Shown here in pieces: positions 2,801 to 32,008 of a stretch of DNA of 64,000 nt (its first letter is position 1; each line of letters starts with the position of its first letter). The stretch is from Hahella sp. CCB-MM4. GTDB taxonomy: Bacteria; Pseudomonadota; Gammaproteobacteria; Pseudomonadales; Oleiphilaceae. Where the stretch lies: contig NZ_MRYI01000024.1 of NCBI RefSeq assembly GCF_002260525.1, forward strand, positions 1 to 64,000, written 5' to 3'. The translations under genes and the position numbers were made by a program. The notes under the pieces are model-generated. The model was not told where the DNA came from, made no database searches, and saw only the letters and a list, made by a program, of their open reading frames with translations.

Positions 2801-3439
2801 TCAGGATTGAGCCGCATCCGAATGATCAAGAATCAGAGCCTCTGTTTCGGTAATTAAATACTCGATTCCATTTTCTCTGAGTAAGACAACCGACTCTGGG
2901 TCATAATCTATATCCATCAGAGGGCTTAACAGATACCAGACCATGTCATAGTCCCGCGTCATTCCATAGGTGGCTTCCATAAGTGCGGAAATCACCAGGG
3001 AGTAATCACCAAGCTCTTCCCTGAATATGTCTCCCAACATCACCATCACTTCATTTTTGACCCAGGAGGCGTCACTGTCCCTGACGGAAGAATACTCAGC
3101 CTGGGAGACCCACTTGAAGGACACGTTATTGAGAATATTGACCAATTGTCTGGCGGAAATCATTTGCAGAAGCCTGCTTTTTTCCGCCAGTGTTTGTGAC
3201 AGCAGTTTCTCAACTCCCGGCTTCCGGTCCATTCCACGGAGTGGTTCAGACCGGCCCCATATCCCTTTGAGACGGGCTAACCTTGGCTTTAAGAGGTCGC
3301 CCTGTTCCACGTATTCAAATATCTGCTCAAGCTCTTCCGGGGAAATCGGATCCATAAAGAACGAGTAGTAGTCACCGGCTCCAGAGCGGGTGGGGGACTT
3401 ACAAAACGATTGCCATTCTTTTAAAAGTACTTGATTCAT
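2801..3439 (-). CDS. Unknown small protein behind the giant CIS protein; candidate immunity protein
   Basis: A 212-residue protein with no signal peptide or membrane segment, probably cytoplasmic, acidic and mostly helical by composition. I do not recognise a family. Its ATG (3439) lies four bases beyond the stop codon of the 2968-residue gene, so the two are translationally coupled and it is the last gene of the minus-strand operon. A small, acidic, unrecognised protein directly behind a huge protein with a polymorphic-toxin layout is the usual place of an immunity gene. That function is inferred from position only. It could instead be a chaperone or loading factor for the giant protein. Confidence 0.7.
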   Translation of the reverse strand: MNQVLLKEWQSFCKSPTRSGAGDYYSFFMDPISPEELEQIFEYVEQGDLLKPRLARLKGIWGRSEPLRGMDRKPGVEKLLSQTLAEKSRLLQMISARQLVNILNNVSFKWVSQAEYSSVRDSDASWVKNEVMVMLGDIFREELGDYSLVISALMEATYGMTRDYDMVWYLLSPLMDIDYDPESVVLLRENGIEYLITETEALILDHSDAAQS

Positions 3440-3444
3440 AATTG

Positions 3445-6400
3445 TCAGGGTTTCGCTTCCGGCAGTTGAGTGGGTAGCAGGCTTCTATCGATTTTCCAAC
3501 GATCCAGGAGTTCAAGCAGCTTGGTATTGAATTCGTCAACATTGTGACTGGCTTGGATGATAGCACGTAGTTCTCGGTGAAGAGTACCGGACCCTTTACC
3601 GGATTGTTTCTCGCCACCCACAATTTCTGTGTGGCCGCCCCGTGCTCCGGAATGTTCGTGGCCAAGGTCGTCCGGTATGGTCCATTTTAGTTTTTCGGTT
3701 TCTGAAGTAAACCGATGAACCTCCTCCATCGAAACGTTCCAGGCCTTTATCCGCTCCATCTCACAGACCATCAGCCACTCGTGTTTAGCGCCGCCGTTTC
3801 GGATGCGGTCTGCGATGGAGTCATAAAGTTTTCTGTCAGCAATCAGCAGTCGAAGTTCTGCTAGAGACAAGCTGTCAAACCATTTACTGAAGCCTTCATT
3901 AAGACCGGGAATTTTTCCGTTGAGCAGTAAATCATCTCGTGAACGGGTCGTTCCCAGATGGGTCTTGATAAAGAGATCAAGGTCATCACCAAATGAGCCA
4001 CTGGCTTTAAGGCGGTTGATTTCTGCCGGGCGGTTGGTCGCACTGATACGGCTCAAAGTATCGGTAAGATCGTTCAACAGGCTGAGAGTCTTATTGAGGT
4101 CAGAACCTCCAAGATCCATGACGCGCAGGATCAGATCGGCATCGATACCGGAGCTTTGAATAAACTGCTTCTGGAACGATGTCAGATTGTTGGCAAGATG
4201 TACAAACTTGTTGATCAAATCCGCCTCTGAGCCCGGGCGTGTCAGAATGGCACTCAATGCAGTCTGCATCAGGCCATCATCAAAAGAATTCCTGCATTCA
4301 TGGAGTAGGGAAACCTTGGCGATAAAATCACTGTCCGCACTAAGCCGAATGATGAGCTGCACCGCACTGGGACCTGGAGTGCCAGCGGCCAACTGTGAAA
4401 TCTTTTGAGCGGTCTCGATGCGGGTTTTGGCATCCACCGTGTTCAACAGATGCTTTGTAATATCCTGAAGTTGGGCGGCATCTGCGGCAGGAATAAGCCT
4501 GGTCAGTGCATCCAGCGTTGCGGCCCGAGAGCTATCCTGAGAGGCGACAGCATCGATCAGGCGAGCGGTGAGGGCGGAGTCGCCCAGACTCTCAGCCATT
4601 TGTTTTATACGCGGTACAAGTTCACCGTAGTCGGATAGCTCCAGCAATTTATTGAGTGCGTCCAGTTTTCTGATGCCACGGGGCAGATTAGTGGCAATGG
4701 CTGCCAGGTCGTGGAGCCTTGCCGCTTTCATATCAAGATTCAGGCTGGATCGTAGAACTTTATTAATATGGTTGGCGGCTAATCCGGAAGTTTCAAATTG
4801 ACGGATTTGAGCATCTGATGCCGTGGAAAGAATTTTATAAAGGGTCTCGGCGCTATCAGCAACATTATCCTTCCTGCTTGCGATCGCATCGGCGATCAAT
4901 CGAACGGAACTTTCATTTTCGAGTAGCTGCGCCGTCTTGGCTAATGGCGACAGCAATGCCTCAAAATCATTTCGTTCGGAAAGACGCTTGAGAATGTCCG
5001 CCCGGTCGTCCATGGGTAATCTGTTTTTCAGTTCGGCCAGGTCGAGAATTCTTTGGTGTGCAACGCCAGGATCATCACTGGAACGTAGCAGTCTTATCAT
5101 ATAATCCGGATGTAATAGCGCCTTTTCCAGCTTCGGCATGGCGTTTGGAGTGGCTTTCGCAGCTTCCATGAAGGCTTCCAGCTTCCTGGCGGTATCCAGA
5201 TGATTCGCTGAAAGGTTAGCGATAGAGCTGATCAAAGTGGCTGCCAACTGATCATTACTGGTCTGACTGATACAGCGGGTGATGATCGGGGCAAGATCGG
5301 TCAGATCGGAACGTTTTAAGAGATTGCCAAAGGTTTCGGTATCCCCCTGTGCCTTGAGAGTGGTACTGATGCTATGAAGCTGATCAATAAATTTACTGCG
5401 TTTGTCCGGGTCCTTATGTCTGTTGAGAACAGATCTCAAGTCTGCTTCTCCCAGATCAAGATCCAGCAGTTTTGTGGCCTCGCTATCGCTTAGCGACTCA
5501 ACCATTTTTTCATATTTGGTTCGGGTCGCTTCTGTTCCACTGGTGGCCACGGCGGTTTTCAGGTCGGCCTTATTAAACATCCTGGCCGGCTGGTCGAGGT
5601 ATTGGGGACGGGGTAGAAGCCCGGCCTGGATCTGCATGCGCACCAAAGGAGTCAATTGATCGACCTCCGCCATACGCTTCTGTAGATTCAGGAGAGTACG
5701 TTGCGCGAGTTCCAACTCCATATGAAGCCGCTTCTGTTCCGCGGGGTCCTCTGATAAACGCAGGCGTTCACCCAGTTGTTCGATCATGCGGTCGTGGGCG
5801 TCGATCTCCAGATCCAGCTTGTTGCGATACAACGCCACCTGGACATCCACAGGCAGATCTTCCCAGCGTTGTAAGTGACCTTCGTCCAGAGAGCCGATGT
5901 GTTTTGCCCAGCGCGGGTCCTGGGCTTGCATGGCGTGGATGCCTTCCTCCCGCAGAACTTTGGGGCTGGCTCCCTCGCGTATAATCACCACGGGCTTTCC
6001 GCCGAGAATGACGGTGACAGCATTGCCCGAATCCGACTGGGCATAATGTCTAAATTCTGCGTCACTCATCACCAGAATGGGAACGTCGTTGAGCAAATGA
6101 CGCTGATCGGGCGGTACCAGGGCCATCAGCTCATTGCGCATCTGTTGGGTATCTTCAGCGCTGCGCTGGATGGACTGGCCGTGCTCCATGGCATCGTCCA
6201 AGGCTTTGTTAAAACGCTTCAGGTCCAGTGAAGGGTCTTGTGCCATGGCCTGATCAATGAGTTTCTGGCGATTTGCCGGTGACAGCTCTCCGTCCATCTG
6301 ACGTATGCGGAATTCCAACAGCGCGGCATCCGGGAGAACAGACAGGATACCGCGTAGGGATTCCGGGACGTTCTCCATCATTTTTTCGCGTTGCTGGCGT

Positions 6401-9400
6401 TGATGTACAGCCTCTTCCTGCCGGCGCGAGTGGGCGTTATCGACAGACTGTTTTATGCTGGCTTCGAAACTGGCCCGGTCGATAGTGGGGTCGATTTTCA
6501 GAGCGGCTTCAAACAGCTCGTTCAAACGATGGCTGCTGGGGGCTTCACCCTCGCTCATGGCGCTGCGCAGGATAGCAATCTGCTCGTCGCTGAAGCGTGA
6601 AAAGAGCGCAGCATCAGCGTCAGGAACATCCCGTAATACTTCAGAACGTTGTTTCTGCAGGATGCGAGTATGGGCTTCTTGTGCGAGCCGGGCACTTTGT
6701 ACTGCACTGTTGAGGTTTTTCAAAAAGGTAACGGCATCGAGTTCCGGGTTGCTCTCCCGTGCCGCCCTTAGGAAGGAGTCTGTTTCTTCTGCGGTCAGTC
6801 TGCCCCGCGCCATGGCCTCAGCCAGTTTTGGGAGTTGAGCGTCGGGCAGGTGTTCAAGGCCTTGCATGGGAATATCTTTGAGGACATTGCGAACCGGCTC
6901 AGGCAGCTGTTGTATCATCCGTTCCCGCATCTGGTGTTGCGCGTCAACGTCGCCGGTATCGTCCAATCGTACTCTTTGGCTGTTGGCTTCTATGGATTTC
7001 AGCAGATCATCACTGCTGATTTCAGGGTTTGACTGGCCAATACGTTCAAGCAATTGTCTTCTGTTATCGCTACTGCCGGCCAGTTGGCCGGACTGCATCA
7101 TCGTCACCAGTTGCCGTAATGCGTTGCTATCCATTGATTCCGCATACCGGCGTACATCATCGGGTAATTGATTGAGCATGTGGCGGTCCTGATCGATCTG
7201 GCGCCGCATATCTTCAATAGACGGCGGATCTTCGCCTGCAGCTTTGGCGGCGGCGCGCAGGGCATTGAGGTCGCTGTCCGTTAGTTCACTGGAACGTCTC
7301 GCTGCTGCCATCAGATCGTTATATCGCTGTCGCGGAATGGCCGATGCGCCTGCACGACCGGCGGCACTAACCATATCTTTGAGTCCGGCCTGACCCATAC
7401 GTTTAAGGGCGTCCTTAAGGCCACCTTTATAGGTACCGGAAGAAACCTCGATCAGTATGCCCGTAGCTTCCCCGGCAAGCCCCCCAAGTCCCTCGGCAAT
7501 GCCTTCCTTGATGATGTTGCGACCGGATGGTCCTAAAGCTCGGCCGAGTCGCGAGAGCCGGGTAATATCGTCGATATTGTCAAGGCCCTTTACCAGCCGG
7601 CTGTTAATCCGGTTGCCCAGGCTTTCAGAGATGCCGGCGCTCACGGCGGATATGGCTCCACCTTTAACGCCACCCAGCAGGATTCGCCCAAAAGCGGCGC
7701 CGGGCCCATCCTTGTAGGTGTCATCCTGCAGCGCCGTGTTGGCAGCCATGCTGACGCTACCCACGAGAGCCTCTCGAGCAATCAGGCCACCGAACTGGCC
7801 GAAAGTACCTTCCAATGCGGCGCCCACTTTTGATAAAGCGCCGGTTATCTGAGCTGCGGGTCCCATACCTTTTGCAATGGCTCCGCCGGCACCGGCGGCG
7901 GCGACCTCAATGGCTGTACTGGCCGCATCGACGGCTGCTTCTTCCCAACCGTAACGCTCTCCCCGCATGCCGCTCTTAACCGCCATGGTCAGCAGGCCGG
8001 AGCCTAAAGCCACGATAATACTGGCTAGTACAAAGCCCACACCGAAAGCCATCAGGATTACCGTCGCCGCTATTGCCAGAGCTGTAATACCTGCCAGCAT
8101 CAGGCCTTCCTGCCGATCCAGCTCCGACTTGTAGCGGTCACCGGCCAGACCGACCTGGCGGGAACGGTCGAGAATCAACGCCCGGTCGCCGGTAAATATG
8201 GGAGGCGTGCTGCGGCCGCCCCGATTTGGCCCTGGAACAAAAATGAGGCCGGCAATTAGAGGACTGATCCTGCCATCGTGGGTGAAGACATCCTCAGGAC
8301 GTTCGGGCAGGGGAATTTCGTCCCCGGTATAATTGGGGTCCTGCATTCTCAGGTCACGGCGACGACGGGCTTCGTCGAGCAACATCTGCCCCATGCCCTG
8401 ATAGTGGCTGTCGATGGTCTGGGCTTCGTCAGTGCCTGACATGGTCCAGCGTGCCAGCCCACCGGTGCCGCGTCGGCGTTGTTGCTGATACCTGAGAATG
8501 GCGAGTTCGATACGATCCTGATCACTCTCCGGATTGCCCCGGGCCAGAATCTGGATTTCATTGGCCAGATCACCTGAAACCTCACCTCCCTGTAACCAGC
8601 CATAAACCGGATCTCCCTGAATACGGGCTTCTTCCTCTGGTGAGCGATGTTGAATACCCAGGTATTCATCCAGGTTTTCGTTATAGCGGCTTTGCCAGTC
8701 TGCCCGGGCCTGATCAACCTCGGTTTTGCTGCGGTTTTGATAGGTCATCCGCAGCAGGTCTTCGTTGGTACCTCCGCCACGGGTCGCCATACGAATACCG
8801 GCGGTCAGGCTGGCGCGGCCCTGGCTGATCAGCTCATAACCGTACTGGGCATCTTCCTGGGCGTGGGAGCGGCGTTCGCCAGAGGGGCGGTCGGTACGAT
8901 AATCCTCGCCACCGGAGAACATCCGTGCCGTACGTTGTGCCATGTAGGCCACGGCACCACCAGCTCTTTGCAGGTCTTCATCGGTAAGGGTCGGATCGAG
9001 TCGCTTGGCGACTCTGGCCATGCGTTCTTCATGACGTTGACGGAGTTCCTCAAGGCGAGGCCGAAGCTGATCCGCACGTTCGGGATGCTCTTGGATCTCA
9101 CGTTCGATATTGGCAAGCTCCGGATCTGCAAATGCCCGGGTGACTCGATTGGTATCGGTTTCGGAAGGCCTAAAGGTAGATTGCTCCGCCCGCGACATTT
9201 CATAGGCTTGGCTGGCGGCCAGGGTATCTTGTGATTGCCAGCCTCCATTGATAGCGGCCTCGGCGTAATCCTTCACCCGTTGATCCACCGGCACCTGCTG
9301 TACGGTGTCTCCGGTATGAACGTAGCGGTCAGCCAGTGCCCGATCGAGATAGATTCGCCGCGCGTCAGTAAGACTGAGGTCCTCACCATTTTGCTGATCA

Positions 9401-12351
9401 GGCGGGCGATGGCGTTCGGCAAAATCCATGATAGCCTGGTCGGTCAACGACTGGATGGCAGCAGGGTCCACTTCCAGATACCTGGATTGACCGCGTTGTA
9501 GCTCTTCCCTGGCCATCTGCTCAATACGTTGTACCGACTGGAAGATTTCGTCGCTGCCTCTACTGCGAGCATTGGCCAGATCCTGCTCCAAGCGGGCCGA
9601 CAGCACCATTCCCATATCACCACGCAGATAACCTTCGTCCATGCGGGTTTGGGTATCGCGCTGGAACCAGGTTACCCAGCTGTCATTGATTTCGGCGACG
9701 AGGGCGTCAATAGCATCATCGCCGGCAGCGGTGCGCTCAGTTTCATCCAGTCCCTGGCTCAGTGCCCGTCGGGCATCTGCGTCCAGTCCAAACAGGGTCA
9801 AGGAATCCTGGATGGAAGCCCGGCGAGCATTAAACCGGTCGGAAGCGGAGCTTGAAAAGAGGCCCCTGGCGCGCTCGGCAGCATCCTCACTGAGACACTC
9901 GTCAAAGCGATTGAACAGGTCCCCCTTATTGGCATGATCAGAGCTTTCGAAAAAGAACTTCAATGCCGGTTGGGATGGCCATTGGAGGTCGCCGAGGACA
10001 GCAAAAATTTCATCGTCGTCAGCGTCCGAGTAAATAAGGTAGCCTGCGGTCAGGCCGGTCGTTGCCCCCAAAGTGGCGACATTCAGGATAACCAGACCGG
10101 TAGTGACGTCTGGATCGGGTTTTGTTAATTCTTCATCCAACTCCTGTGCTTTTGGGTTGAGGTATTCGTCACATTCCGTCTCTATTTGCATGAAAATACC
10201 TTCGCCGGGGTCATTCATGCGGGTCTTGAAACTGTCGACGCCCTGGAAATAGTTACGGCCGGCGCCGCCGATACTCTGATTCAGGCTGCCGACAAAATTG
10301 CGTATCAGTCTGGCCAGGGCTCCGTTTTCCTCGTCACTTGTGGAAAGGATGCGCTCAGCCATTCTCAGGGCATAATCCCGGGCACCGGTAATAGCCGTCA
10401 TGCCGCCGTCGCGCATGCGTCCCGTCACCTGGAAACCGAAAGTTTCAAAATCGAATTTGGTGGCCACCACCGTATCGGATACCTGCTGCAGGCTTTTCTC
10501 TGCAGTTTCACCCAGACTGGCCATCTGGTTTTTGGCCGATTCACGTGCCTGAGCGATGGTCATTTCTGACTGTTCGACCATTTGTGCGTATTGCTGATCC
10601 GGCAGGCGGCGGGAACTCTCCCAGGCGGCCTTCAGGCGCGGTGCCAGTTCTCTTTCATTGAGGAATTGTCCTTCCGGTAGCATTTCCGCGACCCGGACGA
10701 TCAGTTCCGGATAGGCCATAGCTAACGTGGCAGCGGTATTGTTCATCATCCGTTCGCTGACTTCGCCCTGGTCGCGGAAAGCTTTAGCGGCCTGACTGCC
10801 AGCCTTCTGCAGGCCCTCTACCAGCTTGGGCTCCAGCTCTTCGTCCAGGTAAGAGATGACGCCGTCAAATTTATTGATGAGGGTGTCTCCGTGTTCCCCC
10901 AGACTGATGGCTAGTGTATGGCGTGCATCATATACCTGGTCCTCTGTACATTGCTGAGCTTGCCCTTCGCGGCTACGAAAGGACTCCGACAGGGGAGTGG
11001 AAAGACTCATTGCCGCACGGGAAAACTCAGATTTGTAGCTATCAAGCGCATCAGCCTGATTGCCCAGAGACTCCTCAAGTTGGCCACGTGTGGTGTTGTA
11101 GAGACTGTTTAAAACCGGAGTGATGCGGTGGGCGTACCAGGTACCCAGTTCGTCTCGATCACGTTTTTGGGCGACTTCATTATCCAAATCCGTCTTAGCC
11201 TGGGGCATTGTCTGTTGTGGGCCATTGGCCGGATCAGAGGTTCTGGGAGGGTCGCCTTGAGTCTCCTGTAGGGCTTCCGTGCCGGGAGGAGGGTCTAGAG
11301 CGAAGGCTGCACCGTTTTGTTCGATGTTGCGGATATTGTTTTTGGCCGTAGTTAGGTAAGGGGCAAACTCCTCCTGCAAGCGAATATTGGCCTGTTCCAA
11401 TTCCGAGCCCGGTTCCATCAACTGGTACATGACCTGATCCTGAGCCTCAGTCTTGCTGGTTTGCAGCTCTTCGCCGGTTAATGTGTGGGCTTCTGAAAGA
11501 TGGTTAAGTTGCAGATCAACGGCAGTGGTCAGATCCGTTTTGGCCTGGGCCACTGCAGCCCTTACACGGGCAATACAGCCGCCGGCAAAGGCCATTATTT
11601 CGCGGGCGATTTCATCAAAGGATTTGCGGGTGTCGCGCGCCAGATTGCCAATGCGCCAGACAATTTGTCGCTGTCCGTCGCGTGCGGCATCTACCACTCT
11701 CAGCACAGCAACCTGGATTTTAGCCTGGTGCATTTCCGGCGTATCGCCTGTCTGACGCTGTATCTGGGTGCGTCGCTTTAGGGCGCTGGCTGGCGGGGGT
11801 GGTACCCGGGGAGCCCGGATGGTACCGGTACGGGCAATAAGTTCCACGGGAAGCGCCGGCTTCTTGGAAATCGGTTGTCGTTGTTCCGTTGGCTGCACCG
11901 TATCACCGGCGGGTTCGGCCTCGGAGTCTCCCGATACGGACTGCTGAGCATCGTCAGGAATGCACTGTTGCAGGGTTTCATCATAGGTTCCCCCCTCTGG
12001 TGCGTCTCCAGATGACATTTGTTGTCCGTCTTCACCTGCGGTGCCTTCATCTGGCGCCGGCTGTCCACTCTGGTCCGGTCCGGACCCGGGAGTGGAAACA
12101 TCCGATTGAGGTGTTTGCGCATCCAACTGACTCTGGTCGGCAGAAGTCAGAGACATATCCTGATCACTCACGCCGGCATTGGGGTCGTAGCTTGTCATCG
12201 GTTCCGGCAGACTCATGTATTGTGGCACGGAACACATGGGATACTGGTCCGGAGATGACCATGGATCGCTGCTGGATTGGTCCCTATCCGGTGGACGACT
12301 GCGACGACGGGTATCCTCGTCCTGTCGAGAGCGCTGGGTTGGCTCGGTCAT
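3445..12351 (-). CDS. Giant 2968-residue CIS-associated protein with polymorphic-toxin layout
   Basis: The largest gene of the window, at the end of the CIS operon and just before a small gene. Visible parts: a disordered Pro/Gln/Asp/Ser-rich N terminus (about 1-200); long charged helical stretches (about 200-1400); a strongly hydrophobic segment (about 1415-1460, 'GITALAIAATVILMAFGVGF') followed by a Gly/Ala-rich region to about 1690, as in pre-toxin regions; four repeats of about 95-100 residues (about 1712-2070); a zincin-like 'VLREEGIHAMQAQ' motif (about 2130); helical repeat units (about 2290-2750); and a compact tip (2853-2968) with 'GGAKHEW', 'HEHSGARGGHTE' and 'LHREL', rich in possible metal ligands. 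No DUF4157 HExxH motif typical of many eCIS cargo proteins was found. The likely role is a CIS-delivered toxin or a structural or loading protein carrying one. The enzymatic activity is unknown. The ribosome binding site is weak. Confidence 0.8.
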   Translation of the reverse strand: MTEPTQRSRQDEDTRRRSRPPDRDQSSSDPWSSPDQYPMCSVPQYMSLPEPMTSYDPNAGVSDQDMSLTSADQSQLDAQTPQSDVSTPGSGPDQSGQPAPDEGTAGEDGQQMSSGDAPEGGTYDETLQQCIPDDAQQSVSGDSEAEPAGDTVQPTEQRQPISKKPALPVELIARTGTIRAPRVPPPPASALKRRTQIQRQTGDTPEMHQAKIQVAVLRVVDAARDGQRQIVWRIGNLARDTRKSFDEIAREIMAFAGGCIARVRAAVAQAKTDLTTAVDLQLNHLSEAHTLTGEELQTSKTEAQDQVMYQLMEPGSELEQANIRLQEEFAPYLTTAKNNIRNIEQNGAAFALDPPPGTEALQETQGDPPRTSDPANGPQQTMPQAKTDLDNEVAQKRDRDELGTWYAHRITPVLNSLYNTTRGQLEESLGNQADALDSYKSEFSRAAMSLSTPLSESFRSREGQAQQCTEDQVYDARHTLAISLGEHGDTLINKFDGVISYLDEELEPKLVEGLQKAGSQAAKAFRDQGEVSERMMNNTAATLAMAYPELIVRVAEMLPEGQFLNERELAPRLKAAWESSRRLPDQQYAQMVEQSEMTIAQARESAKNQMASLGETAEKSLQQVSDTVVATKFDFETFGFQVTGRMRDGGMTAITGARDYALRMAERILSTSDEENGALARLIRNFVGSLNQSIGGAGRNYFQGVDSFKTRMNDPGEGIFMQIETECDEYLNPKAQELDEELTKPDPDVTTGLVILNVATLGATTGLTAGYLIYSDADDDEIFAVLGDLQWPSQPALKFFFESSDHANKGDLFNRFDECLSEDAAERARGLFSSSASDRFNARRASIQDSLTLFGLDADARRALSQGLDETERTAAGDDAIDALVAEINDSWVTWFQRDTQTRMDEGYLRGDMGMVLSARLEQDLANARSRGSDEIFQSVQRIEQMAREELQRGQSRYLEVDPAAIQSLTDQAIMDFAERHRPPDQQNGEDLSLTDARRIYLDRALADRYVHTGDTVQQVPVDQRVKDYAEAAINGGWQSQDTLAASQAYEMSRAEQSTFRPSETDTNRVTRAFADPELANIEREIQEHPERADQLRPRLEELRQRHEERMARVAKRLDPTLTDEDLQRAGGAVAYMAQRTARMFSGGEDYRTDRPSGERRSHAQEDAQYGYELISQGRASLTAGIRMATRGGGTNEDLLRMTYQNRSKTEVDQARADWQSRYNENLDEYLGIQHRSPEEEARIQGDPVYGWLQGGEVSGDLANEIQILARGNPESDQDRIELAILRYQQQRRRGTGGLARWTMSGTDEAQTIDSHYQGMGQMLLDEARRRRDLRMQDPNYTGDEIPLPERPEDVFTHDGRISPLIAGLIFVPGPNRGGRSTPPIFTGDRALILDRSRQVGLAGDRYKSELDRQEGLMLAGITALAIAATVILMAFGVGFVLASIIVALGSGLLTMAVKSGMRGERYGWEEAAVDAASTAIEVAAAGAGGAIAKGMGPAAQITGALSKVGAALEGTFGQFGGLIAREALVGSVSMAANTALQDDTYKDGPGAAFGRILLGGVKGGAISAVSAGISESLGNRINSRLVKGLDNIDDITRLSRLGRALGPSGRNIIKEGIAEGLGGLAGEATGILIEVSSGTYKGGLKDALKRMGQAGLKDMVSAAGRAGASAIPRQRYNDLMAAARRSSELTDSDLNALRAAAKAAGEDPPSIEDMRRQIDQDRHMLNQLPDDVRRYAESMDSNALRQLVTMMQSGQLAGSSDNRRQLLERIGQSNPEISSDDLLKSIEANSQRVRLDDTGDVDAQHQMRERMIQQLPEPVRNVLKDIPMQGLEHLPDAQLPKLAEAMARGRLTAEETDSFLRAARESNPELDAVTFLKNLNSAVQSARLAQEAHTRILQKQRSEVLRDVPDADAALFSRFSDEQIAILRSAMSEGEAPSSHRLNELFEAALKIDPTIDRASFEASIKQSVDNAHSRRQEEAVHQRQQREKMMENVPESLRGILSVLPDAALLEFRIRQMDGELSPANRQKLIDQAMAQDPSLDLKRFNKALDDAMEHGQSIQRSAEDTQQMRNELMALVPPDQRHLLNDVPILVMSDAEFRHYAQSDSGNAVTVILGGKPVVIIREGASPKVLREEGIHAMQAQDPRWAKHIGSLDEGHLQRWEDLPVDVQVALYRNKLDLEIDAHDRMIEQLGERLRLSEDPAEQKRLHMELELAQRTLLNLQKRMAEVDQLTPLVRMQIQAGLLPRPQYLDQPARMFNKADLKTAVATSGTEATRTKYEKMVESLSDSEATKLLDLDLGEADLRSVLNRHKDPDKRSKFIDQLHSISTTLKAQGDTETFGNLLKRSDLTDLAPIITRCISQTSNDQLAATLISSIANLSANHLDTARKLEAFMEAAKATPNAMPKLEKALLHPDYMIRLLRSSDDPGVAHQRILDLAELKNRLPMDDRADILKRLSERNDFEALLSPLAKTAQLLENESSVRLIADAIASRKDNVADSAETLYKILSTASDAQIRQFETSGLAANHINKVLRSSLNLDMKAARLHDLAAIATNLPRGIRKLDALNKLLELSDYGELVPRIKQMAESLGDSALTARLIDAVASQDSSRAATLDALTRLIPAADAAQLQDITKHLLNTVDAKTRIETAQKISQLAAGTPGPSAVQLIIRLSADSDFIAKVSLLHECRNSFDDGLMQTALSAILTRPGSEADLINKFVHLANNLTSFQKQFIQSSGIDADLILRVMDLGGSDLNKTLSLLNDLTDTLSRISATNRPAEINRLKASGSFGDDLDLFIKTHLGTTRSRDDLLLNGKIPGLNEGFSKWFDSLSLAELRLLIADRKLYDSIADRIRNGGAKHEWLMVCEMERIKAWNVSMEEVHRFTSETEKLKWTIPDDLGHEHSGARGGHTEIVGGEKQSGKGSGTLHRELRAIIQASHNVDEFNTKLLELLDRWKIDRSLLPTQLPEAKP
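6140..7215 (-). repeat. Four degenerate protein repeats of about 95-100 residues inside the giant gene
   Basis: Residues about 1712-2070 of the giant protein contain four successive units. Each opens with a basic/Gln-rich helix followed by a 'LP-(D/E)' or 'VP-(D/E)' turn ('MLNQLPDDVR', 'MIQQLPEPVR', 'VLRDVPDAD', 'MMENVPESLR'). A stretch of hydrophobic helices follows, and then a conserved end such as 'SNPEISSDDLLKSIEAN', 'SNPELDAVTFLKNLNSA', 'IDPTIDRASFEASIKQS' and 'QDPSLDLKRFNKALDDA'. A fifth half-unit ('LMALVPPDQRHLL') leads into the zincin-like region. DNA identity between units is low, so the duplication is old. Confidence 0.7.
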
Positions 12352-12367: not shown

Positions 12368-13318
12368 CTACTGCAAGGTGGCCGGCGCATCAGCGAATTG
12401 AATTGCCCCTGAAACCATTCGATAGGCTTTCGGCAGCCAAACCCATCGGGTCTCCACCCAAACCAGACCGTCATATTGAACGGCACCGCCCTGTGCATTC
12501 AGCCAGCGCCAGCTGAGCCAGATCCACTGGGGTTGCATCCAGCCTGAGACATTGCGGTAACCCTGGGCAAATTTGTCACTGAACTCATTGGACCAGCGCA
12601 GCAGGCCAGCATTGGCCGCCGTGACTTTAAGCTCGGTGTAATCAGGACCGGGGTCGGCCACGGGGGGACGGAAATAAGCCTGCTCCACTTCCCTTATCAT
12701 CGCGTCGGCCAGGGAAGGGTCGAATAATTTGATCAGCTCCTCTCTTGTTGGTTTGAGATGTACCGTACCCACCGGATTGTTGAGCTGCTCGATAAGCGGC
12801 ACAGCCACGTCGGCTAACTGTACCAGTGAGAGAATCAAAGACTCACGGGAATCCCGCGCGCTTTCGAGTCTTTTCCCCACCTGGGCAGCCAGTGCTGCAA
12901 CCTGGTGATCCGGATCGTGAGCAAGGCGATGGGTCTGGGGGATGAGGTCCAGCCGCTCAGTTTCCTGCAGTGCCCAGAGACCTAGTAATCGGTTACGGGG
13001 TAATGAATCAAACAGGAGATCATTAACGTCGGTTTCGCTCAACATGGGAAGATGTTGTACCAGGTGTCCCCTTAGCGTCGGCGGTAGGGTTGCCACATCG
13101 AGCACCCTGAGCCTGGCGACTGGGTTGAAGCTGTATATCAGAATGGGTTTTCTGCCATGCCAGGTCCAGCTGGCAAACTCGGGTTCGCCCTTAAGCAAGG
13201 GACTGTCGGCCGCCTCACCAGTGGATTGCCAGCCCAGCCGCTGCAGGGTTTCTCTAATTTGTTGAAGGGTGAAATCCGGTTTGATCAGCAGAGATTGACC
13301 AATTGCATAGTCTTCCAT
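12368..13318 (-). CDS. Unknown CIS-operon protein
   Basis: A 316-residue protein between the AAA+ ATPase and the giant protein; I do not recognise the family. The N-terminal about 190 residues contain paired helices reminiscent of HEAT-like repeats ('LPRNRLLGLWALQET', 'DHQVAALAAQVGKRL'). The C-terminal part is Trp/Tyr rich ('WMQPQWIWLSWRWLN', 'VWVETRWVWLPKAY'), which suggests an aromatic beta domain or a binding surface. There is no signal peptide or membrane segment. Its start follows the ATPase stop by two bases, and the giant gene starts 16 bases after its stop, so it is firmly part of the operon. An assembly or adaptor role for the giant protein is possible but unproven. Confidence 0.75.
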   Translation of the reverse strand: MEDYAIGQSLLIKPDFTLQQIRETLQRLGWQSTGEAADSPLLKGEPEFASWTWHGRKPILIYSFNPVARLRVLDVATLPPTLRGHLVQHLPMLSETDVNDLLFDSLPRNRLLGLWALQETERLDLIPQTHRLAHDPDHQVAALAAQVGKRLESARDSRESLILSLVQLADVAVPLIEQLNNPVGTVHLKPTREELIKLFDPSLADAMIREVEQAYFRPPVADPGPDYTELKVTAANAGLLRWSNEFSDKFAQGYRNVSGWMQPQWIWLSWRWLNAQGGAVQYDGLVWVETRWVWLPKAYRMVSGAIQFADAPATLQ

Positions 13319-13320
13319 CG

Positions 13321-15333
13321 TCAGGTGTCCTGAGGGGAGGTCAGTGGTGTTTCGGAAATTGTTGAGTTCAAATGCATCAACTGATTAAGCTTGCCGGGCA
13401 ACTCACGCCCCAATTTACGGTATTCGGCGTTAAGCCCTACCAACAGGTCATTTGCTGCGATCGGTCCGCTACCGGCATGGGTCGCCGCAGCGAGAACGAC
13501 GTTGCGCAACTGGCCGCCAGTGAAATCGCAGTAGCCGGCTAACAGTCGATAAACCTCATCTCCGGGACCCCGAGACCCCAGATGACTTTGCCAGAGTTGC
13601 TGGCGCTCCTCGAATCCGGGGATAGGAAACTCAATAATCAGGTCCAGGCGACGGGTAAAGGCCGGGTCGATACGCTCCCGGTTGTTGGATGTCAGGAGAA
13701 CAATGCCGGGGTGGTTTTCGATTCGGGTAAGCAGAAAATGAGTCAGCATATTGGCAAAGCGCTCGCCGGTTTCCTTGCCTTCTGTACGTTTGCCGAAAAG
13801 GGAATCGGATTCGTCAAAAAGCAGGACCACATCGTTGGCGGCAGCCATGTCCAGGACTGCTGATAAGTTCTTTTCGCTTTCGCCCACATATTTGTTCATA
13901 ACAGCGGAAAGGTCGACGCGATAGAGTGGTGCCCCCAGGCGGGTGGCGATGAAATTGGCCGCCAGGGTTTTTCCGGTGCCACTTTCTCCAACAAAGAGGG
14001 CACGAACCCCAGCGGTTTGGGTCTGCTTCAGCGTGGCGCCGAGGCCCTGCCACAACAGCTCGCGTTGCTCAGCCCGTGCCAGCAGACGCTCCAGTTCACT
14101 TTCTACCAGGGGAGGTAATACGATGGCGTCTCTTGGTACCAGACGGGTGTCCGGTTGCGCCAGTAGTCGCAGGCGTTCAGAACCCAATTGAACGCGCGCT
14201 TCCACAATATGATCAGACCCAAGCGGAGCCTGATTACGCTCGGCGATGAGCCGCGCTTTGCCGGCAAGTTGCCCAATGATGGGGCCACTCACCAAGGCGG
14301 CAGCGGCCCGTTCAGCAACACCAGGTTTTATGGGGTGTGAATTCTTCTCCAGCGCTGATTGCCATAAAGATAGCCTTTGCCGGAAATCCGGTAGCGGCAT
14401 GACCAGCTCGGTAAGCCCCGGCTGGTCAATCGCTCCATCGGAGCCAACATGAAACACGATCGGATGGGAAGGCTCCGACATTTCTCGGTGAATAACTTCA
14501 CCCGGACCCAGTTTCGGGGAAAGTATCGGCAGCCAACCGGCATAGCGTGCAGAAGCCACTAGAGCTGGTGTTTCCTGCCATAGGGAGTCAGGTACTGTTA
14601 AAGGTTTTAAACCCATCTGGGCGGCAATGGCCGAGGTTAGGATATGTCGTCCACTACCAGGGAACCCTCTGATGATGAGACCTTTGGCGTGCCCCTGATC
14701 CAGCATTTCGGCCAAAACCGGGATCTGTTGCCGAATAAGTTCTGGTAATAGCTCAACGGACTCTTCTTTCAGCTCCGAGCATCCCGGCCAACAGTCCAAC
14801 TGATCCGTCATCAGTGCCCAAAAGGGAGCTGAAGTTCTTAGTTGGCGGAGAGGCAAAGGGCCTTCTCCGAGCCATGCAACCAATCCTTTTTCAACCAGCG
14901 GATGATATAACCATCCCAGCAGCGACAGCGGTTGCTCCGGAAAAATTGACTGTAGCCAGGACTCCACCAGATGCACTGTTGGATGAGGTTGTGGGGAAGG
15001 GGCTTGTAGCTGATGTACAACCAGGGTAATCAGATGGGAACGCTCCACTTCTCCCAACAATGTGAGCAGAAGAACTTCCTCCATTGGCAGATTGTGATCT
15101 CTGATCAAGAGTTCCAATGGCCCATGACCATCAGGTGGCCAGGATTTTTCAAGTTGTTCCTTCAGCTGGGGGGCGCTTACGTTGTCTTCTATATTCAGCA
15201 GTTGTCTGGCTTCATCGTTGAGCAACTGAAGCAGGCCGTTATCTTTGGGAAGTGCCTGGCACCAGAACTGTGCAAGAGAGAGTCTCGCCAGAGCCGCCAT
15301 TTTTTGCCATAGCTTAATCGGGGTAGCGGACAT
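13321..15333 (-). CDS. CIS AAA+ ATPase (Afp15/Pvc15-like)
   Basis: A 670-residue AAA+ ATPase, the enzyme found in nearly all eCIS loci and thought to help assemble the particle or load its cargo. The C-terminal module has Walker A 'GESGTGKT' (about residue 448), Walker B 'VVLLFDESDSLFGKR' (about 505) and sensor/arginine-finger-like 'LLTSNNRERIDPAFTRRLD'. The N-terminal half contains a second, degenerate P-loop, 'GFPGSGRH' (about 220-230), in which the essential Lys and Thr are Arg and His, so it is probably a dead AAA module or nucleotide-sensing domain. I chose the ATG at 15333, which overlaps the stop of the previous gene as TGATG and has an AGGAG site upstream. An in-frame start 48 bases earlier is less likely. 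Confidence 0.9.
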   Translation of the reverse strand: MSATPIKLWQKMAALARLSLAQFWCQALPKDNGLLQLLNDEARQLLNIEDNVSAPQLKEQLEKSWPPDGHGPLELLIRDHNLPMEEVLLLTLLGEVERSHLITLVVHQLQAPSPQPHPTVHLVESWLQSIFPEQPLSLLGWLYHPLVEKGLVAWLGEGPLPLRQLRTSAPFWALMTDQLDCWPGCSELKEESVELLPELIRQQIPVLAEMLDQGHAKGLIIRGFPGSGRHILTSAIAAQMGLKPLTVPDSLWQETPALVASARYAGWLPILSPKLGPGEVIHREMSEPSHPIVFHVGSDGAIDQPGLTELVMPLPDFRQRLSLWQSALEKNSHPIKPGVAERAAAALVSGPIIGQLAGKARLIAERNQAPLGSDHIVEARVQLGSERLRLLAQPDTRLVPRDAIVLPPLVESELERLLARAEQRELLWQGLGATLKQTQTAGVRALFVGESGTGKTLAANFIATRLGAPLYRVDLSAVMNKYVGESEKNLSAVLDMAAANDVVLLFDESDSLFGKRTEGKETGERFANMLTHFLLTRIENHPGIVLLTSNNRERIDPAFTRRLDLIIEFPIPGFEERQQLWQSHLGSRGPGDEVYRLLAGYCDFTGGQLRNVVLAAATHAGSGPIAANDLLVGLNAEYRKLGRELPGKLNQLMHLNSTISETPLTSPQDT

Positions 15334-16958
15334 CAGCTGCCTTGCTCCTGAAAATGAAACTGCACGACCCGGCCCAGCCATGGGAGCCAGCCCGGGTTAA
15401 CGTCCAATCCCGCGAGGCGGACATCAAGACGAACCTGGTTCATGGGAGCGAAGAGGTCAATATGACTGGGGCTGGCCTGTATTCGTGCGGAGACATCGAG
15501 CAGTTGCGGATTCCACAAACTTTCCGGGTCATACCATTGAGCCAGTATTACCTTTAAGTGCTCTGCCTCCGGCAGCTCAGGCAGGGAAGATAACGGGTGT
15601 TCCTTATCCACTCCCATTTCGGCGAGGATCAATTGGGCAAGTGGATCTTCCAGATCGAGATTAAGCATTTCTGCCAGGCGAAACAGCCAGAACCAGCCGG
15701 ATGGGTAGATGGACCAAAAGTCGGAAAGTATCGACTGCATCTCGGGGCGGCGTAGGACATTCAATAAATAGAGGACGCCACCCTGGTGCGTATTGATGCC
15801 CTCTATTTCAATATTTTGCAGAGGCTTTGAGGCAGAAGAACTTGGTTGTACCGACCATGTTTGGTGGAACTGTGGTTCCGCCTTCTCCGTTTGGTCTGAA
15901 GATGCTTTTGTATCCGGATAACCTTGAGGGGATAAAGGCTGTGCTGGTGGAGTCTCCGTATTATCGGCAGGCTCCAACGTGGAAAAGTTGGTTGGCGCGT
16001 CCCCCGATTCGGTGCTTTGTTCCCGGGGGGACGGGATATTCTGTATCGGGGAGGCTTCCTTGAATTTTTCTGCGGTCTTATCAGCTTCAGAGAGGGTTAT
16101 GGAGTCCTTGGCGAATGACTCTACTTGAGCCGCGGGCTTGGGAGAAGTTTGCCAGGAGGCGTTCTTTGTCGTGCCCGGTACTTGATTGGGATGGTGTGTT
16201 TCAGTCTTATCTATTTCCGGAAACTGCTGACGACGCCACCAATGGTACACGGCCTGCAATGTTTCCTTGGGGGCCTGTGCCAGAGCCAGTGGCCAGAATT
16301 GGCGTGCTACCAGCCAGAAAACCCACTGCTGACGGGCACTTTGAGCAGGCAGCCCGGCGAGGCTGTACTGCCACGCCTGACATCGGCTGGAGGGTATGTC
16401 TGTCAGATCGATAGGGGGAGGCAAGTCTGTATACGGAAATTGCTGAAGCCGGTAGCCTCCCTGATAGGTCAGCTCAATGCACAGGGCTTCAGCATCGGCA
16501 TCGGTCAGTGTTTGCCAGAAGTGCTTCAGTAGCCCGCTGTAGTGTAGCCTTTCAATCACTGCGGCGGTCTGATCAATGTATTCGGCCAACAACGTTCTGA
16601 GTGCTGAAGAAAGGTTACCGCTAAACAGATGGGACCAACGCTGCCAGTACCAGTGTTGACCGGCGGTACCCATTAAAAGGTCTGAAACCAACGCGGCCAG
16701 CAGCTCATCCAGAGTGGCGAAACGTTTGATATTATCTGAATTGCCTGTCTGGGCAACCACCTGCCGGACTCCTGACTTGACTGCTGCAACTGCCCGGTGT
16801 GCCGGCGCCTGAATATGCAGAGAGCGAACAAAGACCCAGGCATGATCACTGGGCTCGGGCCAATCCATCAGTGTCAGTTCCCTCTGGATCTGGTCACAGT
16901 GTTGCCTGTGCCCACGTATCCGCAATCGGTCAATGGTGGTGGCATCGAAAGGTCGCAT
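15333..16958 (-). CDS. CIS protein in tape-measure position (CIS_TMP/Afp14-like)
   Basis: A 541-residue protein directly upstream of the AAA+ ATPase, with overlapping stop and start. In eCIS loci this place is held by the Afp14/Pvc14 'tape measure' family. Residues about 390-420 include 'INTHQGGVLYLLNVLRRP', which resembles the 'AGLxxLLPxL' signature of that family, and the helical N-terminal half also fits. The middle (about residues 270-390) is a Pro/Ser/Thr/Glu-rich linker, probably disordered. There is no membrane segment. The assignment rests mainly on position and one motif. It might instead be a baseplate accessory or a chaperone for the ATPase. Confidence 0.65.
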   Translation of the reverse strand: MRPFDATTIDRLRIRGHRQHCDQIQRELTLMDWPEPSDHAWVFVRSLHIQAPAHRAVAAVKSGVRQVVAQTGNSDNIKRFATLDELLAALVSDLLMGTAGQHWYWQRWSHLFSGNLSSALRTLLAEYIDQTAAVIERLHYSGLLKHFWQTLTDADAEALCIELTYQGGYRLQQFPYTDLPPPIDLTDIPSSRCQAWQYSLAGLPAQSARQQWVFWLVARQFWPLALAQAPKETLQAVYHWWRRQQFPEIDKTETHHPNQVPGTTKNASWQTSPKPAAQVESFAKDSITLSEADKTAEKFKEASPIQNIPSPREQSTESGDAPTNFSTLEPADNTETPPAQPLSPQGYPDTKASSDQTEKAEPQFHQTWSVQPSSSASKPLQNIEIEGINTHQGGVLYLLNVLRRPEMQSILSDFWSIYPSGWFWLFRLAEMLNLDLEDPLAQLILAEMGVDKEHPLSSLPELPEAEHLKVILAQWYDPESLWNPQLLDVSARIQASPSHIDLFAPMNQVRLDVRLAGLDVNPGWLPWLGRVVQFHFQEQGS

Positions 16959-16963
16959 GGGAA

Positions 16964-19900
16964 CTATTTTCCTGAACGACCCTTACCGACCACGGCAAAG
17001 CGGCTGGTAATTGCAATATTGGGAATTACCATATTCACAATTCGCACCTCAGTACTATCGTTATCATCGTCTTCAACTGTCAGTTCTGCCGCAACTTGCT
17101 GGCGTTCATCCAGAAGTTTTAACTGAGCGCCCTGAACCAGGCGGCGATTGAGTTTGACGCGGAATCTTTCACCTGGGTTGGCCCGTTTTGGCGGTAAAAA
17201 TACTTTGCCGCGAACAATTTCCTGTGGGTCTCCCAGCGAGGCGTAAATCAGTACAGCACGAACCAGATTCCGGAGCGCCGTTTTGCTATTGGCGTCGGCA
17301 TCATCGCTGAGTTGCTTGAATAGCCAGGCGATCAACTCAGATAAGGTCCGGGTGGCTTTGAAATCGTCCTTCTCTGCGGTTTCAAGCCCTGGCCAGTAGG
17401 CGACCTGATCAACCTTGATACGGTCATCTTCGGCAAGCTGTCCCCATTGCAGACGCAACGAGCCGGGCAGCAATGCCAGCTTTTCCAACAGGCAGTAGGT
17501 ACATTGTTCCAGACGGTCGTGCAGCAGTTGCGCCTGCTGGCGCAGCTGGCCCCGTCCGTGGGACAACAAGTCCTCCAACGACATGACTTTGGCTGCGGTA
17601 CGCTGGGTACTGGAGGCACTCTTGTAAACATCGGGAAGTGCCCGATTGGACCATTGATTCATGATGGTCTGGGTTTGTTGCTGTACCGTCAGCAGACGGG
17701 CATGCAGAGTTTCTGTCTGGCTATAGCTGAACATTCGCTTCGGACGTGACTTGAAGCGCGCTGTCCTGACCTGATTGATAAATTCAAAGCGATGGAAAGG
17801 AGGTAGTTTAGGCTGTAGCGGCTTGAGCACGGCCCAGTCATCCATCGGTAATTCCACTACCGCATCAAAGAAGGTATCGAGCTCGTCCGGCAGTTCTACA
17901 TCGGTATGCCAATCGCAACCGGGTACAACATCGTCTGGATTCTTATGCCGCATCTCCAGGGGATCAACCAGCGTTTTAGTCACTGGTGTGCTGCGTTCGC
18001 GTACGTAGTAGAGACCCTGGACAGCAGTGGTCAAAATGCGCGAGCGCTCCTGGTTGATGTCGTATACGGAGCGCCAGTCTTCCTCGAGCAAACGTTGGGC
18101 GACACCGAAATCACCTACCTGTTCATCGAAAACCCTATCGAGGTTTTCCAGGGTTTCGCGCGCGACCCGAATGAGTCCACTGAGTTTGTCGATCTGTGCC
18201 AGCTTGCGGGTATGCTCCCGCAGCTTGCCCTGCAGTTTACGCTCAATGTTGTTGTAGCGGGCCTCGCAGATCGCGATCCATTGGGTCAGTATCTTGCCGG
18301 CTTTAAATAGCGCATCGTAGCGGTACTGACTAGCCACCAGGCCACGAACCTTATCGAAACTTGGTTTGGGGTCAGGGAGCGGTTCTTCATTGAGGATGCG
18401 ATTGGCTTCTGTGGTGATATTGGACTCCAGCATCGCCGGATCAACCAGCCCGCTTCCGGAGATCAGGCTTTTAAGTTTGGCTCTCAGAGCATTGGCATCA
18501 GTGGGGTCGAACAAATCTGCAAGGGTCGCCAGCAGATCCTGCATGCCGTAGTAGGCCTTTTGATATTCGTTTACTTCGGGGCTGATATGGTCGAGCACAC
18601 CGAAGCGGAACTCCTTGGGCTGGTAGGCGGGTTTGCTGATCGGGCTCTTGCTTAGATTCGCCAGTAAGTCCAGACGCTTTTTGTTAATGCCGAGTTCAAA
18701 CGCGGAATAAGTCTGCGGCTTGAAGCTCAAGAAGGATTTTGAGGTTTTGGCACTGGTATTCAGGGCTGAACTCAGCAGGTTCTGGCTGAAAATCTTCTGA
18801 CTGTAGTTGGCCTTGCTCGAACCGCTGTCGTAAATGGAATAGGACGCGGAGGGTTGAGTACTGGAGTAGGATAGGGCGGAATAGCTATCGGCAAAATTGG
18901 CTTCCAGCAACAGCGCGTTGGCATTCAAGCTTAGGGTTCCGCTGGTGGCCTCGCCAGTACCGGATTCCGTCCCTCCGGATGTACCACCTTCTGTGGTTGT
19001 TGGGGCGGCAGAGGCTGTTCCGCCAGAAGCCTGATAAATGACCTCTTGGGGAACCATATTGGTGTTCAGACTGGCATAAGGAAGCCACCTGGCCACCTGT
19101 AGTCCGTTGCCGTCGCCGGCAACACCCCCAGCAAGGGAGGCCAGCGAGACCGTTTGTGTGTCCAATTGCTGGCGTTCCAACAGCACCAGATCCCGGGTTT
19201 TCTCCAGACGGGTGCGGATGGCCCGGATCTGGTTTTCAATTTCTTCCAGATCAACCAGGGCGACGGCGTATTGAATCACCAGTCCATCCTGCTCTGGCGT
19301 GGGGATCGGGGGCGGCACAAGGGTACCGTCAACATTCACCAGCCAGCCGGTATAAAATTCCGGTGCTTCAGGATTACTCAAACTGTAGGGATAGGGGGCA
19401 ATAGTGTCGCCGGGACCAAGCAATTCCTCCAATGCACGTGAGCGCACATTGTTGAATAAATCCGTTGGAGTCAAAGGCGGAAGCGCTGGTTTTGGCAGGT
19501 CCATCTGTTTGAATTGTTCCGGATCAAGCACTGCGTGCTCTACCTCGGTATTGGGGGCAGGTAGGGGCGCTTCTCCGGACGGCAACACGTAATAAAGATA
19601 GTCGAACTGTATACGCCAGCGCCGCCAGGCGTTATAGGCTCTCATGTAGAAGCGGTAGATGTCGCTGGCGAGTTTGGCATCGATTGGTGGGATATTGAGG
19701 AGGTCCGGCCGAAAGTTTGACTCATCGATGGCCAACAACAGTCGAATACGATCACCTGCCGGTTGTCGTAAGTCGATCACTCGTCTGGGCAGATGGCGGG
19801 CTACAAGATCCCTGACTGTATCGGTGGGTACCGGAACCATATCAATGCTGAGATGGCTGGGGAACCACGGGATGTTGGGCGTAACAGAATCCGGCTGCTG

Positions 19901-20749: not shown

Positions 20750-20819
20750 GTTCCTTCTCCTGTATACCATCACAAAGCGGCAGGTGGCCAAAGCCACAGG
20801 ATCAACAGATCAGCAACGC

Positions 20820-22583: not shown

Positions 22584-22598
22584 TGTGGCTCCTCCGGA

Positions 22599-23507: not shown

Positions 23508-23519
23508 TCAGCCTTCTCC

Positions 23520-28045: not shown

Positions 28046-28062
28046 CTTCTATTCTCCTTGTG

Positions 28063-28458
28063 TCACCGTACGGCGCCCAGGTTGAGGGTTAGACCCAACT
28101 CAGCGGGCTGGTTCAGGTGTTTCATGCGGTAGCGAATCGTGATGTGAACATCTGCCAAGTGAGTGGGACTGGGCATGACCTCGACACTGTCCACGAAAAT
28201 CCGGCTTTCCCAGAGCTGTATCGATTTCCGTACGACTCCGGCAATAAGGTTGCGCGTCGTTTCGTTATTTGGCTGATGCACAAAATTTAATAAACCGGCA
28301 CCAAAATCCGGTCGCTGCAGGCGCTCTCCCGGTCGGGTCAACAGAATATTCAGCAGGCTTTCGCGGACACTGGTATCAGCACGGGACCACCTTATCCTGC
28401 CGTCTTCGTCGACGCCGTTGAGAGGCCAGCTTTGAATGTTGGGCATGGGTATCGGCAT
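28063..28458 (-). CDS. CIS baseplate wedge protein, gp25-like (Afp9/Pvc9)
   Basis: A 131-residue protein of the T4 gp25/GPW family. Key features are 'VRESLLNILLTRPGERLQRP' (about 30-50), containing the conserved 'I..IL.T..GER...P.FG' signature, and 'FGAGLLNFV' after it. The small wedge protein anchors the sheath's first ring to the baseplate and helps trigger contraction. It sits between the membrane-segment protein and gpJ, with only a few bases between genes. Confidence 0.93.
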   Translation of the reverse strand: MPIPMPNIQSWPLNGVDEDGRIRWSRADTSVRESLLNILLTRPGERLQRPDFGAGLLNFVHQPNNETTRNLIAGVVRKSIQLWESRIFVDSVEVMPSPTHLADVHITIRYRMKHLNQPAELGLTLNLGAVR

Positions 28459-28465
28459 AACGGCC

Positions 28466-31943: not shown

Positions 31944-32008
31944 ACCCGGCTATTCCACCTGCTTTCCATCAACGCCATCTGTACACCCTCAATGTCACCT
32001 ATACATCC

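Follow-up and report, generated by a model that had tools for sequence, protein, structure and literature searches.

Our analysis of a 64,000-nucleotide stretch of Hahella sp. CCB-MM4 DNA (contig NZ_MRYI01000024.1, positions 1 to 64,000; this whole stretch is referred to as the window) suggests that the last large gene of an extracellular contractile injection system (eCIS) operon encodes a giant cargo protein of polymorphic-toxin architecture (2968 amino acids (aa); 3445..12351, reverse strand), and that the acidic 212-aa protein encoded directly behind it (2801..3439, reverse strand) is its cognate immunity protein. We estimate the probability of this reading as a whole at about 80%. Sequence comparison shows a constant body with a changing end, a modular C-terminal tip, linkage between the tip and the small gene, and segregation of tip clades with immunity families. 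The initial annotation of this DNA had proposed a toxin coupled to an immunity gene, and this interpretation is largely supported, in that 53 of 56 loci with relatives of the tip have beside it either a relative of the 212-aa protein or a gene of another small family. The coordinates, strand and lengths of both open reading frames (ORFs) given there are correct; the spacing is not four bases, as written, but 5 nucleotides (nt) between the TGA of the giant gene (3445-3447) and the next ATG (3437-3439). The order at this end of the operon is AAA+ gene, 316-aa gene, giant ORF and, finally, the 212-aa ORF.

The body of the giant protein recurs in related eCIS loci, where it carries other ends. The search of 196 related genomes recovered the body in G184, at 54% identity over query residues 13-2394, without the tip; a weak match in G007 (E 9.5e-4, residues 1674-1751) was treated as chance and left out. 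Among 390 genomes of the order, body residues 1377-2274 were detected in four, namely the window's own genome, G184, G205 and G215. The window's own was the sole match in 369 genomes of the class, and two matches were obtained in 15 genomes of the family of G184. Identity to the body is 52% for the G184 protein (up to window residue 2403) and 49% for the G205 protein (up to window residue 2495). In global alignments against these two proteins, the identity of 100-residue segments amounts to 29-78% up to residue 2300, including 51-54% in residues 2201-2300, and falls beyond the body to 24-32% in residues 2301-2400 and then to 14-32%, near chance. Residues 2301-2800 (3952..5451, reverse strand), with their poor conservation from about residue 2300 onwards, form a fast-changing linker that joins the constant body to the tip.

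The last 130 residues of the G184 protein and the last 152 of the G205 protein show no similarity to the window tip nor to each other, and the genes behind them differ as well: a gene of 157 aa lies 16 nt away in G184, and one of 132 aa lies 4 nt away in G205, the latter being DUF6960-like (E 2.9e-5; score 24.7 bits, cut-off 27). Beyond the body, the two giant proteins share a long stretch whose motif, of the kind D...VEAKG...QM..W, resembles by eye a restriction-endonuclease-type core. The giant protein of G215 ends in a VEAKG-type domain, and the next frame of at least 70 aa is on the other strand. The G205 end was detected also on Listeria LXG proteins, among the five plasmid records that matched it. 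As a separate observation, the immunity-type gene of G205 is followed by a KptA/Tpt1-type RNA 2'-phosphotransferase gene (L081:11344-11964; Pfam, 4.6e-32), an odd neighbour for a toxin cassette.

Comparison of 24 window ORFs with the G184 region revealed counterparts, at 32-83% identity, for the 19 located between 3445 and 39611, and no counterpart there of the 212-aa gene nor of four ORFs outside the operon. Within the stretches examined, counterparts of 13 of these 19 ORFs were present in G205 and of 15 in G215, the rest lying outside the stretch or not being found. The initial annotation had proposed to check in related loci whether tip and small gene change together while the rest stays. 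The outcome was as predicted, though from a small sample of four loci: between the window, G184, G205 and G215, the end differs and so does what follows it, and the body and the operon stay. The same chassis of about 2300 residues in four genomes, with differing ends and with different small genes behind it in three of the four, provides a clean natural experiment.

The C-terminal toxin-type module of the giant protein, which we call the HEW tip, comprises about 166 residues (residues 2803-2968; 3448..3945, reverse strand) and is delimited by homology to the C-terminal ends of other proteins. The compact, His/Glu-rich tip described earlier at residues 2853-2968 is real as an end module, but it is longer, homology beginning near residue 2803, and its composition is just mildly biased (7 His and 14 Glu in 116 residues). 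Residues F2821, R2851, H2857, E2858, P2893, H2907 and H2925 (window numbering) are invariant in a 35-row alignment made up of the window and 34 of the 56 loci, from which the other 22 were omitted as partial, broken, near-identical or not needed. Among the 196 related genomes, the tip was matched at C-terminal ends in G123 and G168 and as a copy with an internal stop in G189. Two of 72,556 plasmid records carry it, on an SpvB/TcaC-type protein of Aliiroseovarius and on a pre-toxin-TG protein of Priestia. The 56 tip loci were obtained by scanning genomes of named species with a 5-row alignment and include overlaps with the preceding searches and with each other (L025 is the contig of G123, L030 that of G168, and L022 and L023 are near-identical).

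Pfam domains of 21 of the 56 carriers were determined: nine contain FHA, HINT, Rhs or LXG domains, one contains eCIS_core, one PT-TG and ten none of these. FHA repeats occur in L021 and L024 (with HINT), HINT in L029, LXG in L061, and Rhs in L032, L047, L062, L066 and, together with PAAR, in L071; in L035, PT-TG scored just below the Pfam cut-off. The eCIS_core carrier (L048:1996-6808), from a Kofleriaceae metagenome-assembled genome, has an Imm22-type gene 4 nt behind it and, belonging to another phylum, is possibly a second case of this tip in eCIS-type use. Its 12 kb gave no match to any eCIS protein of the window except the tip, so that a neighbouring eCIS operon is not established. The tip is common to at least six kinds of carrier (the chassis described here, LXG, FHA, Rhs, eCIS_core and SpvB/TcaC), a distribution that, as judged by homology, marks it as a mobile toxin-type module. 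With the tip of L061 as query in place of the window tip, no match was obtained among 50,697 phage records. Broken-frame tips were observed in L031, L067, L076 and L016; behind the first three an immunity-type frame is still present, in L067 at a distance of 246 nt.

The small gene was found to travel with the tip. A member of a small family stands beside the tip in the 53 loci mentioned above, in 11 of them a relative of the 212-aa protein and in 42 an Imm22-type gene, Imm22 (PF14112) being the name given by Pfam to the gene of L061. No gene in the 56 loci was matched by both of our in-house immunity profiles. The Imm22-type profile was built from 12 seeds, 11 of which are among the 42 loci, leaving 31 of the 42 independent of it; for the profile of the 212-aa family, ten of the 11 loci are independent, L025 being the contig of the seed L014. 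Relatives of the 212-aa protein were located behind the tip in L009, L014/L025, L021-L024, L026-L029, L031, L036 and G255. The gene that follows the tip of L014/L025 after 7 nt is related to the 212-aa protein at 27% identity over residues 1-204 (E 2e-19). A search started from the immunity side in 194 genomes of the order returned three confident matches, of which the window's own and G123 were already in the query alignment, and a single new one, G255, 8 nt behind a tip; this is the nearest pair found (54% identity for the tip, 35% for the small protein). A further match in G160 (52 residues inside a 704-aa frame, E 2.2e-4) was treated as chance and left out. The description of the small gene as acidic is confirmed by an isoelectric point (pI) of 4.55, and all 12 immunity proteins for which it was computed, the window's included, are acidic (pI 4.1-4.9).

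In Aliiroseovarius (S056), the tip is followed after 5 nt by a weak relative of the 212-aa protein (E 6e-6 in local comparison, E 2 in the plasmid search) that was recognized at 3e-26 by a profile not including it. A second copy of a 212-aa relative is located in S056 in a row of small genes together with annotated immunity 26 and DUF1851 genes. Orphan relatives were likewise seen in rows of small genes in S137 (with immunity 26 and DUF1851) and S212 (with DUF6572 and DUF1851), with no tip found in the 16 kb covered in either. We also observed at L036:6462-8021 an immunity relative behind the tip that is fused to a long N-terminal stretch (519 aa in total) with Sel1-like repeats by eye.

A tree of 36 tips, made from the 35-row alignment with the addition of L009, was used to compare tip clades with immunity families. 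A branch with support 99 parts 11 long-type tips, the window's among them, and L030 from the other 24, and this same branch separates one immunity family from the other. With L042 and L045 unlabelled, mapping of the immunity labels required only 2 changes for 3 states by a quick method without shuffle control; 20 of the 33 inner branches were left open. For 11 pairs, from which L023 (near-identical to L022) and L031 (broken tip) had been left out, distances between tips and distances between immunity proteins are correlated (Mantel r 0.58, p 0.006).

A number of observations weigh against the toxin-immunity reading and have to be set beside this evidence. One tip-bearing locus (L030) has an unrelated small gene of 221 aa, and another (L045) is without a recognisable immunity gene, its 115-aa ORF having been a seed of the profile so that its match is circular; L042, the third locus with neither family, is cut off by the end of the stretch covered. 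Taken as single sequences, the small genes of Aliiroseovarius resemble the family weakly (22-24% identity; the plasmid search gave E 0.4-5), and their link to it is made by their position and by the profile that excluded them. The Mantel correlation ignores the common descent of tips and of immunity proteins. Among the other loci with the same body, the G184 end has no match among the plasmids, for which reason it is not established as a toxin, and in G215 no gene of at least 70 aa follows the giant gene on the same strand; immunity is therefore not a fixed part of the chassis. The eCIS_core domain (PF13699/DUF4157), a common marker of eCIS cargo, was not found at a Pfam-detectable level in the giant body, and neither the tip nor the 212-aa protein has a convincing match in Pfam, in NCBIfam or among PDB sequences. 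Finally, the SpvB/TcaC-type carrier of the tip makes a bacterial target uncertain.

The underlying searches gave the following values. Scans of the giant and the 212-aa protein against Pfam, NCBIfam and PHROGs yielded nothing above curated cut-offs, and in NCBIfam nothing at E<=1; the 212-aa protein has no Pfam match at E<=1, Imm22 (PF14112) included. The window tip has no match in NCBIfam at E<=0.1, and the 35 tips together matched ten Pfam families, each by one tip only (best E 0.011). The best PDB match of the 212-aa family, 1qyi (E 0.0033), covers part of a hypothetical protein and was not relied on, and an elongation factor, the sole PDB match of the tip profile, was rejected (E 1.1). A search with PF15529 (Ntox24) gave no match in 229 genomes and none in its controls either, and carries no weight.

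If the toxin-immunity reading holds, the giant protein would be loaded into the tube of the particle by its polar leader, as its architecture and the behaviour of polymorphic toxins suggest, and the body with its hydrophobic segment would serve passage through the tube and into the target. Firing would then drive the giant protein through the tube into the target, where the tip would act in the cytoplasm, and in the producing cell and its kin the 212-aa protein would bind and block the tip during loading of the particle. The presence of an antidote would indicate that the tip endangers some bacterial cell and not which cell is the target, so it may serve antibacterial use or self-protection alike. 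We lean slightly towards another bacterium as the target, because nine of the 21 scanned carriers have domains of interbacterial systems. The tip would be an enzyme whose target is present in all bacteria; our guess, an even bet, is a nuclease, perhaps an RNase, favoured because of the invariant His and Glu residues and because Imm22 of the sister clade is listed with nuclease-type toxins in the 2012 survey (PMC3482391).

It is also conceivable, if somewhat unlikely, that tip and small protein are a real pair and that the particle is aimed at eukaryotes, the small gene guarding the producer from a toxin with a universal target or having come along with the cassette. The same tip family on an SpvB/TcaC-type giant protein encoded by a plasmid of Aliiroseovarius crassostreae, a species linked with oysters, would agree with such an aim. 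FHA, HINT, Rhs and LXG domains are known from systems used between bacteria, and their presence in those nine carriers speaks for a bacterial target instead, as does the adjacency of the gene pair in very divergent hosts. The first characterized eCISs are, for their part, those with invertebrate hosts (PMC8213781), which fits a eukaryotic aim. An unlikely course, in our view, is that the machine is fired within the producer or anchored to it, as in CIS-mediated death of Streptomyces, the thylakoid-anchored CIS or the mode of a type VI secretion system, with the 212-aa protein as a safety catch against premature self-killing. Intracellular or membrane-bound CISs are known (PMC12237407, PMC8894136), an operon protein of 549 aa has a C-terminal membrane segment that hardly varies across all four loci, and Pfam recognized no tail-fibre domain among the operon proteins scanned. 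Intracellular or anchored CISs (Streptomyces CISSc, tCIS) are marked by a membrane adaptor (CisA) or a membrane-anchored fibre (Cis13), a part that the 549-aa protein might conceivably play. The missing fibre match says little, because tail fibres vary greatly; moreover, the pairing of an exchangeable tip with its own immunity is typically seen where cells compete with one another.

That the 212-aa protein serves the tip as adaptor, chaperone or loading factor and not as antidote appears improbable. Adjacency to the tip and inheritance together with it would fit a tip-specific chaperone equally well. Orphan genes for weak relatives of the protein, however, stand in the company of immunity-type genes at places without a detected tip, the sister clade of tips has the Pfam immunity family Imm22 at the same place, and 212-aa relatives accompany such different carriers as FHA, HINT and SpvB/TcaC proteins and the window's chassis. 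Most improbable of all is a structural role, in which the giant protein would resemble a tape measure of the particle and its end would be no toxin. Its great length, polar start and hydrophobic segment would suit a tape measure, no separate tape-measure gene was recognized by Pfam among the operon proteins scanned, and CIS effectors related to tape measures have been published (PMC13277306). Against this, the end module is common to several unrelated toxin-type proteins and the ends and next genes differ between related loci; for the body, a structural role and a cargo role are not exclusive of each other.

The domain order given for the giant protein in the initial annotation is mostly right, the polar start and the hydrophobic Gly/Ala-rich segment being confirmed and the repeats not being clear-cut. 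Residues 1-200 (11752..12351, reverse strand) form a polar, low-complexity leader of low conservation, 55-68% of which is P, Q, S, T, D or E; it is presumably disordered and may act as a loading signal. Residues 1401-1700 (7252..8151, reverse strand) are hydrophobic and rich in Gly and Ala (30-39% together), with the strongest 21-residue hydropathy peak starting at residue 1427. At 50-78% identity to G184/G205 they rank among the most conserved stretches of the body, and they might serve membrane insertion or translocation. Comparing the giant protein with itself gave no internal repeat at E<=1; a degraded repeat may still exist, because residues 2407-2637 align with the G184 protein at a shifted position (E 1e-7). 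A conserved EExxHxxQ motif (REEGIHAMQ, residues 2134-2142; 5926..5952, reverse strand) is present as REEGxHAxQ in all four bodies and resembles by eye the HExxHxxQ of the PVC (Photorhabdus virulence cassette) metallopeptidase with the first His replaced. HExxH itself is absent from all four giant bodies, and a profile comparison of the four bodies with three eCIS_core sequences gave a probability of 0.2%, which is not significant, so that the motif was rejected as evidence of this metallopeptidase and counts as no more than a lead.

The eCIS operon upstream of the pair (12368..39611, reverse strand) was recognized by Pfam and encodes a Pvc16-type protein, a sheath, two tube proteins of gp19 type, CIS_tube, a GPD hub, an OB-domain spike, Baseplate_J, Tail_P2_I, an AAA+ ATPase and further conserved proteins; sheath, tube, CIS_tube, hub/spike, baseplate J, Pvc16-type and AAA+ genes are thus present together in the window. 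The AAA+ ATPase (13321..15381, reverse strand; Pfam AAA, 4.6e-27) is conserved in G184, G205 and G215. The gene of the 549-aa protein (28466..30115, reverse strand) is nearly invariant in four loci in its C-terminal membrane segment, which comprises the last 45 residues or so and reaches a hydropathy of 2.8-3.1 over 21 residues near the C-terminus in all four; it may provide membrane contact. Besides the window's own, distant partial matches to this protein were obtained in two of 249 genomes of the phylum (G598 and G1044), and none was obtained among the 50,697 phage records.

Several further features of the operon and genome were noticed. The products of three consecutive genes (16964-20797, 20820-22583 and 22599-23507, reverse strand) have by eye a common N-terminal pattern, GxxxGLxV...TPGxAxxxxG, and might be a fibre or baseplate family. 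The gene at 15333-16958 (reverse strand) is the least conserved of the operon besides the cargo end, with 25-36% identity in relatives. The same genome (G000) contains a second, distant CIS locus on contig C85 near 484-506 kb (L090, L091, L088, L089) with two eCIS_core (DUF4157) proteins nearby, and another eCIS_core protein is encoded on C24.

In the terms used by Geller et al., the absence of an adjacent immunity gene from most verified antibacterial eCIS toxins is an intriguing mystery (PMC8213781). The present locus suggests a route to antibacterial eCISs, namely inspection of the genes behind giant cargo, and suggests that an eCIS machine can be used against other bacteria and not against animals alone. 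The sister clade of tips, with the unrelated Imm22 at the same place, lends itself well to the study of how a new antidote comes to be adopted by a single toxin family. As a tentative extension, which we hold to be doubtful, these loci could represent a class of gammaproteobacterial CISs with a chassis of about 3000 residues free of DUF4157, on which the terminal toxin is swapped jointly with its antidote, as one cassette; given the nearly invariant membrane segment encoded in the same operon, such machines may be antibacterial weapons associated with a membrane. The eCIS label and the animal-targeting model would then not fit, and the tip and the 212-aa protein would found new toxin and immunity families.

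Among known systems, Afp18 is a giant eCIS cargo protein encoded near the end of its operon, as is the giant gene of the window, and acts on insects via a glycosyltransferase; we know of no matched immunity gene for it. The likeness to LXG/pre-toxin-TG toxins (Bacillus spizizenii L061, Priestia L010) consists in the same tip family with a small acidic gene directly behind it, the carriers being different and Imm22 (PF14112) standing in place of the 212-aa family. Modular eCIS toxins were described in 2012 by Zhang et al. (PMC3482391), and the polymorphic toxins of the PVC secretion systems treated there resemble the window protein in their constant N-terminal part, highly variable C-terminal toxin domains and phage-tail-like delivery (PMC3482391). 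They carry the PVC metallopeptidase HExxHxxQ...E, whereas the window protein has no detectable one, just the EExxHxxQ motif, and a notable proportion of PVC systems is described as lacking adjacent immunity genes, whereas the window locus has one (PMC3482391).

The statement in the initial annotation that immunity genes are normally not needed for eCISs acting on animals needs qualifying, toxin-immunity pairs beside eCIS operons having been published in 2021 by Geller et al. (PMC8213781). The eCIS-associated toxins (EATs) of that study are like the window pair in that a toxin beside the eCIS operon has a protective neighbour gene. EAT5, tested there with its immunity gene, is RES-like with an upstream Xre-like partner, as opposed to a protein of about 3000 residues with an exchangeable end and a downstream partner in the window (PMC8213781). 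A reconfigurable CIS effector was published in 2026, with an immunity partner in a relative (PMC13277306). Sle1-type effectors and the Micromonospora eburnea pair RS14790/RS14785 likewise have a conserved N-terminal part and an exchangeable functional C-terminal domain, and in one case a downstream protein relieves toxicity; by their description, these effectors differ from the window protein in being actinobacterial, with a coiled-coil N-terminus and a DUF4157 partner protein (PMC13277306). Internally fired or membrane-associated CISs are documented in Streptomyces and Anabaena (PMC12237407, PMC8894136), and further background is available in PMC12961389, PMC11297309, PMC12923769, PMC13392607 and PMC12700104. 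A search of the open literature with general terms, weak as evidence of absence, found no description of the giant chassis, the tip family or the 212-aa family, and the tip and the 212-aa protein apparently constitute unnamed toxin and immunity families. Hence, with eCIS toxin-immunity pairs and modular eCIS toxins already published, what this locus apparently adds is the giant chassis combined with these two families.
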